64,000 nucleotides of DNA, from assembly GCA_947489665.1 (NCBI GenBank), contig CANLEH010000002.1:186001-250000 (forward strand), written 5' to 3'. Below the pieces are notes generated by a model. The model ran no database searches. It had not been told where the DNA came from and saw only the letters and a program-made list of their open reading frames with translations. Positions within the stretch are counted from its first letter, which is position 1. The number at the start of each line of letters is the position of its first letter. Source of the stretch: an uncultured Roseicyclus sp. Its GTDB lineage: Bacteria > Pseudomonadota > Alphaproteobacteria > Rhodobacterales > Rhodobacteraceae. The position numbers and the translations under genes were made by a program. This document shows positions 531 through 37,456 of the stretch, piece by piece.

Positions 531-638
531 CTCGGTGTCCCTCCCGCTGCGCCGTTGCGCGTGTTCGTCAGGCATGTTGCAACCGAGGCGCGAGGGGGTC
601 AATCTGCGTTACCGCCAACTGTGACGAAAGGGACAGGC

Positions 639-1037
639 ATGACGCTTACGATGACTGCCGCAGAGATGGTCGCCGCCGCCCGCGCCCGCATTGACGAGAT
701 CGAAACAAAGGACCTGATCGCACAGTTGGATGATCCCGATCTGGTGGTGGTCGACATCCGCGACATCCGCGAACGTCAGCGCAGCGGGTTCATCCCGGGC
801 GCAGTCCATGCGCCACGTGGTATGATCGAATTCTGGGTCGACCCAGACAGCCCCTACCACAAGCCCGTCTTTGCGCAGGACGGCAAACGCTATGTCTTCC
901 ATTGCGCGTCCGGATGGCGCTCTGCCCTCACCGTGGCGACCTTGCAAGACATGGGCTTTGCGGCCGCGCATCTGCGCGAGGGTTTTTCCACCTGGGCCGA
1001 TCACGGCGGGCCTGTTGAACAGTCGGACAAGGGTTAA
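639..1037 (+). CDS. rhodanese-like sulfurtransferase
   Basis: A 132-residue single-domain rhodanese. The start at 639 is preceded by GAAAGGGA at good spacing; the frame stays open further upstream but overlaps the divergent prpE coding region. VVVDIRD near residue 45 is the usual domain entry. The active-site loop HCASGWRS supplies the catalytic cysteine (C-x-x-G-x-R pattern). These proteins move sulfane sulfur between a donor and a thiol acceptor in the cytoplasm, but nothing here shows the physiological donor. It is divergent from prpE and ends about 60 bases before aroQ. Confidence 0.85.
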   Translation: MTLTMTAAEMVAAARARIDEIETKDLIAQLDDPDLVVVDIRDIRERQRSGFIPGAVHAPRGMIEFWVDPDSPYHKPVFAQDGKRYVFHCASGWRSALTVATLQDMGFAAAHLREGFSTWADHGGPVEQSDKG

Positions 1038-2479: not shown

Positions 2480-2713
2480 CGTGGCGGCATTCTCCCGCCA
2501 CCGGGTCCACCCAAAGGTCGCACCTCGTGGCCTGAGGGGCTCGAAGCGGGCGGCGTTTATTTTTCGACGCCCGATATCCGCTTCGGGGAAACGGACTGCC
2601 TTTTGTCCCTTGGGCAGCCCGATTTGACGAACCGGCGCACTATCCCTTGTCCCTCGCGCCGGGTGTTCACTGAAGAAGCGGCGTTGCCTATGTCCCTGGG
2701 CAACGCCGTTTTT
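2480..2713 (+). ncRNA. candidate small RNA with three evenly spaced TGTCCCT-loop hairpins
   Basis: The 455 bases between the luxR-family gene and the ECF operon hold no convincing gene but a chain of stem-loops ending in a strong terminator. Two 5' hairpins have stems 2481-2487/2495-2501 and 2543-2549/2578-2584. Then come three hairpins whose loops all contain TGTCCCT: stem 2596-2600/2613-2617 (motif 2604-2610), stem 2632-2638/2656-2662 (motif 2648-2654) and stem 2679-2688/2699-2708 (motif 2691-2697). The motifs are 44 and 43 bases apart. The last stem is followed by a T-run, so the transcript is on the plus strand. I see no clear promoter, and the 5' end is a guess. The pyrimidine-rich loops could pair with AGGGA-type ribosome binding sites. 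I do not recognise the family. Confidence 0.55.
2679..2713 (+). terminator. strong intrinsic terminator (third hairpin of the small-RNA candidate)
   Basis: A 10-bp perfect stem (2679-2688 with 2699-2708), a 10-base loop, then TTTTT at 2709-2713. It lies 300 bases past the previous gene's own terminator and 94 bases before the next gene, so it must serve a separate transcript. Confidence 0.85.
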
Positions 2714-2806
2714 CTTTGTCTGTGCACATCCTGTCCCGAAAAAGCGCAGCCTTGAAGTAAACCGATCCGTGCTTCCGTGACATGTATGGTCATGAAAGGG
2801 CTGACC

Positions 2807-3181
2807 ATGACCGAGACGGACAAAGACATTGAAACGCTGAACCGGCTGTTTGGGGAAGCGCGGGCAGATTACCAGGCGCTGCGCCATCATGCAGTGCCGC
2901 CGCCCCTTACAGTGGTGCCGCAAGCCAAGCCCCGCCCCGTGCACCGGGTGCTAGCCATTGCGGCAGGCGTCGCCGCACTTGGTGTGACCGGCCTTGTGCT
3001 GTTGAGCCTCAATCAACCCGACACACCGCCGGGCCACCGTCTGATCGCCGCGCCGCAAGCCATGCCCGACGCCCCGTCGGGCCGCCCGCAATTCACCGGC
3101 AGCCCCCGCCCGACGCTGTCCTTTTCTCGCATGACGTTCGATTTCACGCTGCCGCAACGCCCCGACGGATCGAGCGGATGA
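2807..3181 (+). CDS. small single-pass membrane protein upstream of an ECF sigma gene (possible anti-sigma)
   Basis: A 124-residue protein starting MTETDKDIETLNRLFGEARAD. The start at 2807 has GAAAGGG seven bases upstream; earlier in-frame ATGs at 2777-2792 lack this. A charged, helical N-terminal half of about 45 residues is followed by one membrane segment (AIAAGVAALGVTGLVLLSL, about residues 52-70) and a proline-rich tail. No zinc-binding His-x3-Cys-x2-Cys motif is visible. Its stop overlaps the sigma-factor start by 4 bases. Position and topology suggest it may hold the sigma factor at the membrane. That is inference from context, not from a recognised domain. Confidence 0.6.
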   Translation: MTETDKDIETLNRLFGEARADYQALRHHAVPPPLTVVPQAKPRPVHRVLAIAAGVAALGVTGLVLLSLNQPDTPPGHRLIAAPQAMPDAPSGRPQFTGSPRPTLSFSRMTFDFTLPQRPDGSSG

Positions 3182-3753
3182 ACGCGGCCCCGCCCTCAGA
3201 TGCGGATTGGGGCCTGATGGCGCGCGCCGCACAGGACCAATTGGCCCTGTCGCAGCTCTACGACCGACACCGTCACTACGTGTTCCGGCTCGCCTGGGGC
3301 ATCTTGGGCGAAGACGCCGCCGCAGATGATGTGGTGCAAGAGGTTTTCCTGCGCCTTCACGATGGGCGTTTAAAGGCGCAGCCGCGCGCGAAATTCACCA
3401 CATGGCTTTACGGCGTCGTAATCAACGTTGCCCGCGAACAGGCCCGTAAACGCCGCCGCTTCTGGGGCGCGGCTCAGGCGGATGAAGTGCTCAGCACCCA
3501 CGCTGATGAACAGGCGGACCCCGCCCGCCTTGACCGGCTGCGCGATCTGGGGCGCGCGCTCGCCACACTACCGATCCGGCAACGCGAAGTCGTCCTTCTG
3601 CGTTTTCTCGAAGGCTTCGACACCGCAGAGACCGCCGAAATTCTCGGATGTCGCCAAGGCACCGTGAAGGCCCATCTCCACCGGGCCACCCGCAAACTGC
3701 AAACCGAATTCCAATCCCCGCCCGCACTCACCCATAAGGAGACTACCCAGTGA
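3178..3753 (+). CDS. ECF-type RNA polymerase sigma factor
   Basis: A 191-residue sigma-70 family protein with only regions 2 and 4. Region 2 (about residues 20-92) contains LYDRHRHYVFRLAWGILG, DDVVQEVFLRLH and FTTWLYGVVINVARE. Region 4 (about 118-172) contains LATLPIRQREVVLLRFLEGF and GCRQGTVKAHLHRATRKL. It would direct polymerase to a small regulon. The ATG overlaps the upstream membrane-protein stop, and the gene's own stop overlaps the next start, so the three genes are translationally coupled. Its subgroup is not clear, because the partner is not a classical zinc anti-sigma factor. Confidence 0.9.
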   Translation: MNAAPPSDADWGLMARAAQDQLALSQLYDRHRHYVFRLAWGILGEDAAADDVVQEVFLRLHDGRLKAQPRAKFTTWLYGVVINVAREQARKRRRFWGAAQADEVLSTHADEQADPARLDRLRDLGRALATLPIRQREVVLLRFLEGFDTAETAEILGCRQGTVKAHLHRATRKLQTEFQSPPALTHKETTQ

Positions 3754-4130
3754 AACACATGTTTATCGCAAGCGTCCTCAGCGTGACGGCTCTATTTGCC
3801 CCGGTGCATAACGCACAGGCGCAAGAGGCCGAGTATGAGATGATCGGCCTCTTCCAATCCTATCTCGACCTGGCCGAGCAATTTGTGGACTTCACTACCG
3901 AGCAGGAGGCGACGGTTTTCCTCGCTATCGAAGGTGTTGCTGAAATCTACGAAGAACGTGGCGAGCTGGCTGCAGCCATCCCGGTCCTGCAAGAGGCGCT
4001 GGCCCAATACCCCGATGATCTGGCCGTGCGCAACATCATCCGCTTCAAACTGCGCGACCTCTATCGCGACACCGGTCAGGCGGATCTGGCGCTGGCGGAA
4101 CTGCAAGCCATTATCGAGGAAAACAGCTAG
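3750..4130 (+). CDS. exported tetratricopeptide-type protein
   Basis: A 126-residue protein read from GTG at 3750, with AAGGAG eight bases upstream and a 4-base overlap with the sigma gene. An N-terminal signal peptide (MKHMFIASVLSVTALFAPV, then NAQAQ) precedes a short helical repeat region: AEIYEERGELAAAIPVLQEAL followed by LRDLYRDTGQADLALAELQ, the alternating pattern of two TPR units. It should be periplasmic and bind another protein. As third gene of the ECF operon it may be a sensor partner or an output of the system. Confidence 0.65.
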   Translation: MKHMFIASVLSVTALFAPVHNAQAQEAEYEMIGLFQSYLDLAEQFVDFTTEQEATVFLAIEGVAEIYEERGELAAAIPVLQEALAQYPDDLAVRNIIRFKLRDLYRDTGQADLALAELQAIIEENS

Positions 4131-35918: not shown

Positions 35919-37226
35919 CTATAGGGCGCGGAAGGCCTTTTCCTGACGCGCGGTCCAGCGCACGCTCAGCACCGTTTCTTCTTCGCCCGAAGCTTCCGCT
36001 TCGACCACGCCGCGCTCAAACAACCAGGCGCGTTTGCGGCCCTCCGTATGGGCCAGCGTCAGGGTCGCTTCGTGGCGGGGTGGCGAAAGCGCCTCGGCCA
36101 CGGCCGCCAGCATCGGATCCATCCCTTCGCCGGTCAATGCGGATGTCGCGAACACATCTGACCGCCGATCGGCTTCTGTCTGGCGCGCCTCACGCGCTGC
36201 CGCGTCCAGACGATCCAACTTATTCCAGACTTCGATTTGCGGCGCCGTTTCACTGACCCCCAGATCGCCTAGGATGGCCGAGACATCTTGCGCCTGCTCA
36301 GCACTTTCGGGGTGCGAGATATCGCGCACATGCACGATCAAATCGGCGTCGAGCACCTCTTCCAACGTGGCGCGGAAGGCCGCAACAAGTTGGGTGGGCA
36401 AATCACTGATGAAACCCACTGTGTCAGACAGAATGATCTCGGTCCCATCGGGCAATGTCACCGCCCGCATGGTCGGATCGAGCGTTGCAAACAGCATGTC
36501 CTTCGCCATGACCTCCGCCCCCGTCAGTCGGTTGAAAAGGGTCGACTTGCCCGCGTTTGTATAGCCCACGAGCGCGACAATCGGATACGGCACTTTCTTT
36601 CGTGCGGCCCGGTGCAAGGATCGCGTTTTGACGACTTTCTTCAATTGCCGGCGGATCCGGGTGACGGCTTCGTCAATCGCGCGCCGGTCGGCCTCGATCT
36701 GGGTTTCACCGGGGCCACCCACAAATCCCAATCCGCCGCGCTGACGTTCCAGGTGGGTCCAGGCACGCACCAGCCGTGTGCGTTGGTAGCTGAGCGCTGC
36801 CAGCTCAACCTGCAGCACCCCTTCCCGCGTCGCAGCACGGTCGGCGAAAATCTCAAGGATAAGCCCCGTCCGGTCGAGCAGTTTGCAGCCCCACTCTTTC
36901 TCAAGGTTGCGCTGCTGGACGGGCGTGACGGGCCCGTCGATCAGAACAAGGCCGATATCCATCGCCTCGATCAGATCATGCAATTCCTCGATTTTGCCGG
37001 ACCCGAACAGCAAGCCGGGCTGTGCACGTGGCAGTCGTACGACTTGCGCATCCACGACCTCCAGATCCGGCAATGCAGCGGCCAGTGCGACCGCCTCTTC
37101 CAACGCAGGGCCAGCCTCACGCCGGGTCCGATCAGATTGAATGTCCGGGTGCAACACCAATGCCCGCATGGGGCCCTTGCCCAATGCGGTTCCGTTCTCG
37201 TCAGTGGCGCCGTTGGCTGCGCTCAC
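35919..37226 (-). CDS. hflX: GTPase HflX
   Basis: A 435-residue ribosome-associated GTPase. The N-terminal HflX domain includes [11 protein letters not shown] and [21 protein letters not shown], plus the [15 protein letters not shown] glycine-rich linker. The G domain carries [12 protein letters not shown] (G1), DTVGFI (G3) and NKLD (G4). HflX splits stalled ribosomes. The start overlaps the hfq stop by 4 bases, the usual hfq-hflX order. Confidence 0.95.
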
Positions 37227-37456
37227 TCTTCCCCGTCGTAGAGGTTGATGGGCTGTGCCGGCATCACGGTCGAAATCGCGTGCTTATAGACCAACTGGCT
37301 TTGTCCGTCGCGTCTGAGCAACACACAGAAGTTGTCAAACCACGTGATGACGCCTTGAAGCTTCACACCGTTGATCAGGAAAATGGTTACAGGAACCTTC
37401 GTCTTGCGGACGTGATTCAGAAATGCGTCCTGCAAGTTTTGCTTATTTTCGGCCAT
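37223..37456 (-). CDS. hfq: RNA chaperone Hfq
   Basis: A 77-residue Hfq. Sm1 has [28 protein letters not shown] and Sm2 has [16 protein letters not shown] is the alphaproteobacterial form of the YKHAI motif on the proximal face. It binds small RNAs and mRNAs as a hexamer and is relevant to the two small-RNA candidates here. hflX overlaps its end. Confidence 0.97.

Follow-up and report, generated by a model that had tools for sequence, protein, structure and literature searches.

Several small regulatory RNAs (sRNAs) of Firmicutes, namely RNAIII, RsaE, SprD and FsrA, pair through an accessible UCCC motif with their mRNA targets at the Shine-Dalgarno (SD) sequence, as reported in PMC4132741. 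The same report describes LhrC of Listeria monocytogenes, in which three redundant UCCC sites, including that of the terminator loop, bind the lapB mRNA at the SD region (PMC4132741). The RNA considered here is predicted downstream of a luxR-type gene in a stretch of 64,000 nucleotides (nt) from an uncultured Roseicyclus sp. of the Rhodobacteraceae (assembly GCA_947489665.1, contig CANLEH010000002.1, positions 186,001 to 250,000), referred to as the window. It resembles LhrC in its UCCC loop core and in the use of the terminator loop, and UCCC is common to both loop types of its family, AUCCCC and UGUCCC; we infer an LhrC-like mode of action. The organisms are unrelated and no sequence relation is claimed: LhrC has five gene copies whereas a single match is found here, LhrC is controlled by LisRK whereas this RNA would be controlled by the adjacent LuxR, and the targets of LhrC are known. 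With the UCCC sRNAs of Firmicutes the alphaproteobacterial RNA shares the accessible UCCC, again without a claim of homology. The explanation we favour, and consider moderately probable, is a LuxR-controlled trans-acting sRNA whose C-rich loops pair with G-rich ribosome-binding sites.

Within the Rhodobacterales, the CcsR1-4 or cuckoo RNAs of Rhodobacter are sRNAs with C-rich loops. In a search of 441 bases, similarity to CcsR1 (RF02791) over 2663-2714 had an E value of 0.009 and reached 20.8 bits, far below the gathering score of 65.3. The CcsR1 loops read CCUCCUCCC, whereas those of the window contain UUUGUCCCUU, ACUAUCCCUUGUCCCUC and UAUGUCCCU, and membership in this group was rejected on both grounds. 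The whole window gave no match in Rfam 15 at the gathering threshold, and in the open-access literature searched this RNA was not described, an unnamed entry in some RNA-seq list being still possible. The RNA appears to be undescribed. The novelty is one of scale, with most of the sampled Rhodobacteraceae genera carrying this structured, LuxR-linked RNA. Its parts in the window are as follows:

2437-2713, + strand: predicted small RNA, from a predicted +1 near 2437 to the U-run, about 277 nt.
2437-2469, + strand: hairpin 1, GUUCC(GUGAGUGA)UGGC...GCCAGGAAC, the most conserved part of the RNA.
2470-2594, + strand: middle hairpins, ending in GGGGAAACGG (folding; covariation of presumed counterparts in distant members).
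2596-2617, + strand: hairpin A, stem 2596-2601/2612-2617 of 6 base pairs (bp), loop containing UUUGUCCCUU, UGUCCCU at 2604 (folding).
2632-2662, + strand: hairpin B, stem 2632-2638/2656-2662 of 7 bp, loop ACUAUCCCUUGUCCCUC, UGUCCCU at 2648 (folding).
2680-2713, + strand: terminator hairpin, stem 2680-2688/2699-2707, loop UAUGUCCCU with the motif at 2691, then T5 (folding; terminator scan).

A preliminary description had proposed a small-RNA candidate at 2592-2713, with three hairpins showing the same TGTCCCT loop on unrelated stems and a terminator at the end. The three copies do lie where it placed them, at 2604-2610, 2648-2654 and 2691-2697 on the + strand; folding puts each of them in a hairpin loop on a stem unrelated to the others, and the last hairpin is an intrinsic terminator. 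The hairpins of the proposed extent stand, but this extent covers the 3' half alone, the conserved RNA starting near 2437; the 5' half, the operator-like dyad, the spread through the family and the second loop type are additions to that description. The locus is intergenic, between the luxR-type gene (1548-2351) and an open reading frame (ORF) of 134 amino acids (aa), and the fold z-score is -3.9 for 2580-2720 and -7.6 for 2352-2720. Three TGTCCCT within 100 nt occurred in 0/200 shuffled windows (both strands). The motif was chosen post hoc, and 15 different 7-mers of the real window occur three times within 100 nt, against 1 to 9 in ten shuffles. Because other 7-mers also cluster, the TGTCCCT cluster of this single window is not overwhelming, and these 7-mers are what could be said for chance GC-rich palindromes combined with a chance repeated 7-mer. 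The reality of the cluster is settled by conservation within the genus: the 13 arrays, taken from GGGAAACGG to the terminator, hold two to four TGTCCC each and 41 in total, whereas the mean number in shuffles is 1.3 and the highest 6. Conservation and the covariation described below refute chance, which is left with a negligible probability.

The DNA of 2380-2780 matched all 13 genomes of the genus and 1 of the 28 other genomes searched. Each of the 13 loci follows the same luxR, itself preceded by aroQ (in two pieces at one locus, L007). Of 37 UGUCCC copies in the genus arrays of 12 genomes, 32 sit in an apical loop whose stem has 4 bp or more, against 108/390 random 6-mers drawn from genus arrays; the array of L007 was ended early by the terminator pattern and is left out of this count, its four copies being part of the 41. 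Fifteen distinct sequences are found among the closing stems, and several species carry a tandem pair of copies within one loop. Loops kept while stems change, the support that the preliminary description asked for, are seen within the genus; other genera mostly have the related AUCCCC loop instead. The even spacing of 43-44 nt is not general, since the genus arrays range from 118 to 205 nt.

Identical loops repeated on unrelated stems are typical of protein sponges such as CsrB/RsmY, which sequester CsrA. A sponge for an RNA-binding protein would account for this arrangement and for the variation of the loop copies from two to four in the genus. CsrA (PF02599) was found in 0/21 genomes searched, while 3/14 control genomes matched, and a CsrB/RsmY-type CsrA sponge was rejected on this basis. 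The transcribed strand, given by terminators found on the + strand, shows UGUCCC and not GGA in its loops, and most distant members have a single C-rich loop; a protein sponge, perhaps for a protein other than CsrA, is judged unlikely.

Beyond the genus, an alignment of 26 loci (13 from the genus, 13 from others) displayed a shared stretch from the box GGTAAGG.. through hairpin 1, with 99.6% of cells paired and both-sided changes at three of nine pairs. The covariance model built from this stretch, R1, which spans operator to hairpin 1, matched 268/394 Rhodobacteraceae genomes (267/393 genera), mostly once per genome. No match was found outside the family, the four matches among 289 genomes sampled over the class all belonging to it. 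A luxR-type gene lies upstream in 93/93 loci examined (39-100% identity to the window LuxR) and tsf lies downstream in 81/93, the examined stretch perhaps ending too early in the other 12. These 93 loci comprise 26 from the searches that built R1 and 67 from the R1 search, the latter being the better-scoring among the matches listed, a non-random choice in which at least two (L055, L058) look already found via luxR. Two weaker matches (E 2e-6 and 1e-4) also have both luxR and tsf. A divergent member, L143 (genome G083), has a hairpin 1 without GUGAGUG; its operator-like box, luxR and tsf are kept, and CTCCTCCCCGAG follows.

This constant position, after luxR and before a convergent tsf, would also suit a transcribed structural element or a piece of the luxR 3' untranslated region acting without regulatory pairing, e.g. 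in mRNA stability or termination between the two convergent genes. The constant layout of operator, -10 element and hairpin, whose spacing was partly selected by R1, and the conservation of the loop sequence over that of the stems both speak against such an element, which we hold to be improbable.

The structure was followed in 49 distant sequences. These were obtained from 66 distant loci by removing 10 without ATCCC and seven whose ATCCC was judged misplaced; L055, L057 and L058, duplicates or near kin, had been left out of the distant sets. Hairpins 1-4 comprise 21 pairs, with 89.1% of their cells paired. Both-sided changes are seen at 16 of the 21, in 96 cells against 25.7 in shuffles; slid structures gave at most 57.9% paired cells and at most 27 cells with such changes. 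On this alignment RNAalifold found hairpins 1 and 2 only, the other two being drawn in by eye before the pairs were counted. The 8-nt bulge of hairpin 1 (2442-2449, GUGAGUGA, GUGAGUG[AG]) ranks with the best-conserved stretches in the family. By eye, its GUGAG could pair with the CUCAU of the distant-type loop. The bulge could also be read as the start of a short-peptide gene, GUG AGU GAU/GGU, with an ORF at 2442-2627 that spans 61 aa in the window and has conserved first codons. Single-base length changes in hairpin 1 shift its frame (e.g. L066 versus L076), for which a coding ORF was rejected, and base pairs covary; a peptide gene is accordingly considered very improbable.

In most of the distant members a single hairpin follows hairpins 1-4, its loop resembling CUCAUCCCCAA. 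Counted by position, 52/66 distant loci have the AUCCC core 75-150 nt past hairpin 1, a set that includes a few of the seven judged misplaced; by eye the core was placed in 49/66. In these 49, chosen for having AUCCC, the AUCCC columns of the alignment show little or no variation while the flanking stem letters vary. A 7-nt stretch is unpaired at five or more positions in 25/52 distant loci, against 61/1040. The near outgroups L025, L027, L028, L030 and L031 read TATCCCCATGTCCC, by eye in one loop, and the loop of hairpin B in the window still reads ACUAUCCCUUGUCCCUC. By eye, hairpin B is presumed to correspond to the one CUCAUCCCCAA hairpin that other genera have. The simplest history, drawn from the outgroups and not from a tree, would be that this loop gained a UGUCCC version which then multiplied in the genus.

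Two promoter-like elements precede the RNA:

2385-2400, no strand assigned: operator-like dyad, family consensus GTAAGG-N4-CCTTAC, GTAAGGGAATCCCCAT in the window, 3' half-site degenerate in the genus.
2425-2430, + strand: -10-like element, CATTCT.

In 66 distant sequences 329 of 396 cells of the dyad are symmetric, against at most 157 when slid, and its two outer pairs are symmetric in 66/66. The distance from dyad centre to hairpin 1 is 43 or 44 bp in 88 of 89 sequences and 42 in the remaining one, L030 being left out of this count. Counting hairpin 1 as +1, the conserved positions that stand out in the stretch from box to hairpin are an A at -11 and a T at -7, the two that matter most in a -10 element. 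A dyad near -42 together with a -10 element is the layout of class II activation by LuxR, and a layout of this type would hold if the predicted +1 at hairpin 1 is correct. Taken together, covariation, the intrinsic terminator and this conserved promoter-like layout lend support to the proposed small-RNA candidate. Its reading as a multi-loop regulatory RNA is supported too.

The pattern GGTAAGGNNTYCC with one mismatch showed no excess in the window's own genome (47+32 against 76+75 for the reversed pattern), and a large LuxR regulon was rejected on this count. The perfect dyad occurs in 10/100 family genomes, at 11 places, and the reversed pattern in 19/100 genomes. Six of the 11 places are the sRNA promoter by coordinates, so that no sign of a large regulon appears at this stringency, although a regulon of degenerate sites may exist; one further place is in a genome (G119) whose sRNA position was not listed.

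The presumed activator and the end of its gene are:

1548-2351, + strand: luxR-type gene, Autoind_bind and GerE domains (Pfam), 267 aa, presumed activator of the sRNA.
2352-2375, + strand: 20-bp palindrome ACCTGTCCTTTTCGACAGGT (2352-2371) and T-run, possible luxR terminator (folding).

The palindrome is not kept in all relatives; in form it is like a classical lux box, and it may be a terminator, an operator or both. The LuxR protein is 89-96% identical across the 13 genomes of the genus. In 13/13 of these genomes there are LuxI-family matches above the cut-off of 24 bits, the best of each genome scoring 31-41 bits; none of them lies at the sRNA locus. When aligned with LasR, under a mapping of positions that we presume to be correct, the window protein shows the changes W57Y, D70G, P71V and E178Q and keeps Y61, its own residues at the aligned positions being Y61, G74, V75 and Q187. 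Several residues of the AHL pocket, as listed in PMC11655674, are changed. Group 1 of the unknown LuxR solos was defined from 25 genera by the gene order aroQ - luxR solo - tsf (PMC4338825, Table 4; Subramoni et al. 2015) and by the changes W57Y, Y61F, D70I/G/A, P71V and E178Q (PMC4338825). The window LuxR has four of these five changes, without Y61F, and its locus has the same aroQ - luxR - tsf(C) order but with an ECF operon before tsf; it probably fits group 1. The term 'sRNA' is absent from the full text of PMC4338825.

Downstream of the sRNA come the genes for the 134-aa protein, an ECF sigma factor and a TPR protein (2777-4130), then convergent tsf and rpsB, both named from their sequences. 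The three genes between sRNA and tsf were seen in L002, L003 and L006 only, of 14 loci checked.

Two genes of the window bear on possible targets:

3-530, - strand: prpE-like propionate--CoA ligase gene, divergent, ribosome-binding site AGGGACA, the exact complement of UGUCCCU.
37223-37456, - strand: hfq, on the sRNA contig at a distance of about 34.5 kb.

The preliminary description had called AGGGACA, the complement of the loop motif, SD-like. It behaves as a weak SD sequence in a 464-kb sample, where an ATG follows after 2-10 nt for 6/30 copies against 1/30 for TGTCCCT, but shows nothing beyond other AGGGANN words. An earlier enrichment before ATG rested on a reversed-pattern control shown to be unsuitable. 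AGGGACA lies upstream of two of 367 predicted starts against 0.1 expected, too few to judge. Anti-SD pairing of the UGUCCCU loops is plausible. GGGACA precedes prpE in seven of the 13 genus genomes. Among 27 usable loci from other genera GGGAC was found before prpE in none, a GAGGAG-type site being common there by eye; these remained from 30 loci in 61 genomes after removal of two misplaced ones (L172, L179) and of the window's own gene (L157). As a candidate target, prpE is a lead, noticed after the fact and in related genomes. At window 629-653, AGGGACAGGCATG forms the start of a gene that by eye is rhodanese-like; of the 13 genomes, only G000, G001 and G003 were seen to have GGGACA there.

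The following mechanism may be proposed. In most of the Rhodobacteraceae, a promoter of its own would drive the sRNA immediately after the LuxR-type gene. Judging from geometry and co-occurrence, LuxR would bind the dyad about 43 bp before the RNA and activate it. The RNA, as covariation and folding suggest, would comprise a conserved 5' domain followed by a 3' part in which the C-rich loops are exposed. By analogy with the UCCC-loop sRNAs, these loops (AUCCCC in most of the distant members, UGUCCC in two to four copies in the genus) would pair with G-rich ribosome-binding sites and repress translation, probably with Hfq. Several identical loops may provide redundancy, or allow one RNA to hold more than one target.

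A number of observations weigh against this account. Covariation of the dyad goes little beyond the make-up of its columns (329 symmetric cells against a mean of 320 and a maximum of 331 in shuffles), and the genus of the window has a degraded 3' half-site. Because R1 spans operator to hairpin 1, its matches were selected for their spacing and for hairpin 1; under strict filters it had no match in 126/394 family genomes. The structure used for the pair counts was drawn from the same 49 sequences. Of the 66 distant loci, 14 lack AUCCC at the expected place, and the accessibility of the UCCC core, found for 32/37 copies in the genus, is weaker in distant members, AUCCC being fully unpaired in an apical loop of the minimum-energy fold in only 24/52 loci, against 138/660 random 4-mers. 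On the target side, AGGGACA before ATG is not enriched beyond other AGGGANN words in the 464-kb sample, and six of the 13 genus genomes are without GGGACA before prpE. Lastly, the luxR-end hairpin is weak and is not listed by the terminator scan, so that read-through from luxR is possible, as the structural element or 3' untranslated region would have it.

At a more tentative level, the orphan LuxR, widespread in the family, may be dedicated to one output, acting mainly on the adjacent sRNA and turning a signal into control at the post-transcriptional level; the seed loop would have passed from AUCCCC to UGUCCC and multiplied in one genus, the ribosome-binding sites of targets such as prpE changing along with it. 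This possibility is clearly weaker than that of a LuxR-controlled sRNA pairing through its C-rich loops. A testable function is hereby offered for the group of LuxR solos listed from 25 genera in PMC4338825. The family also provides a natural series in which the presumed pairing loop changes and multiplies while the rest of the RNA stays, and which suits the study of coevolution between sRNA seeds and their targets.
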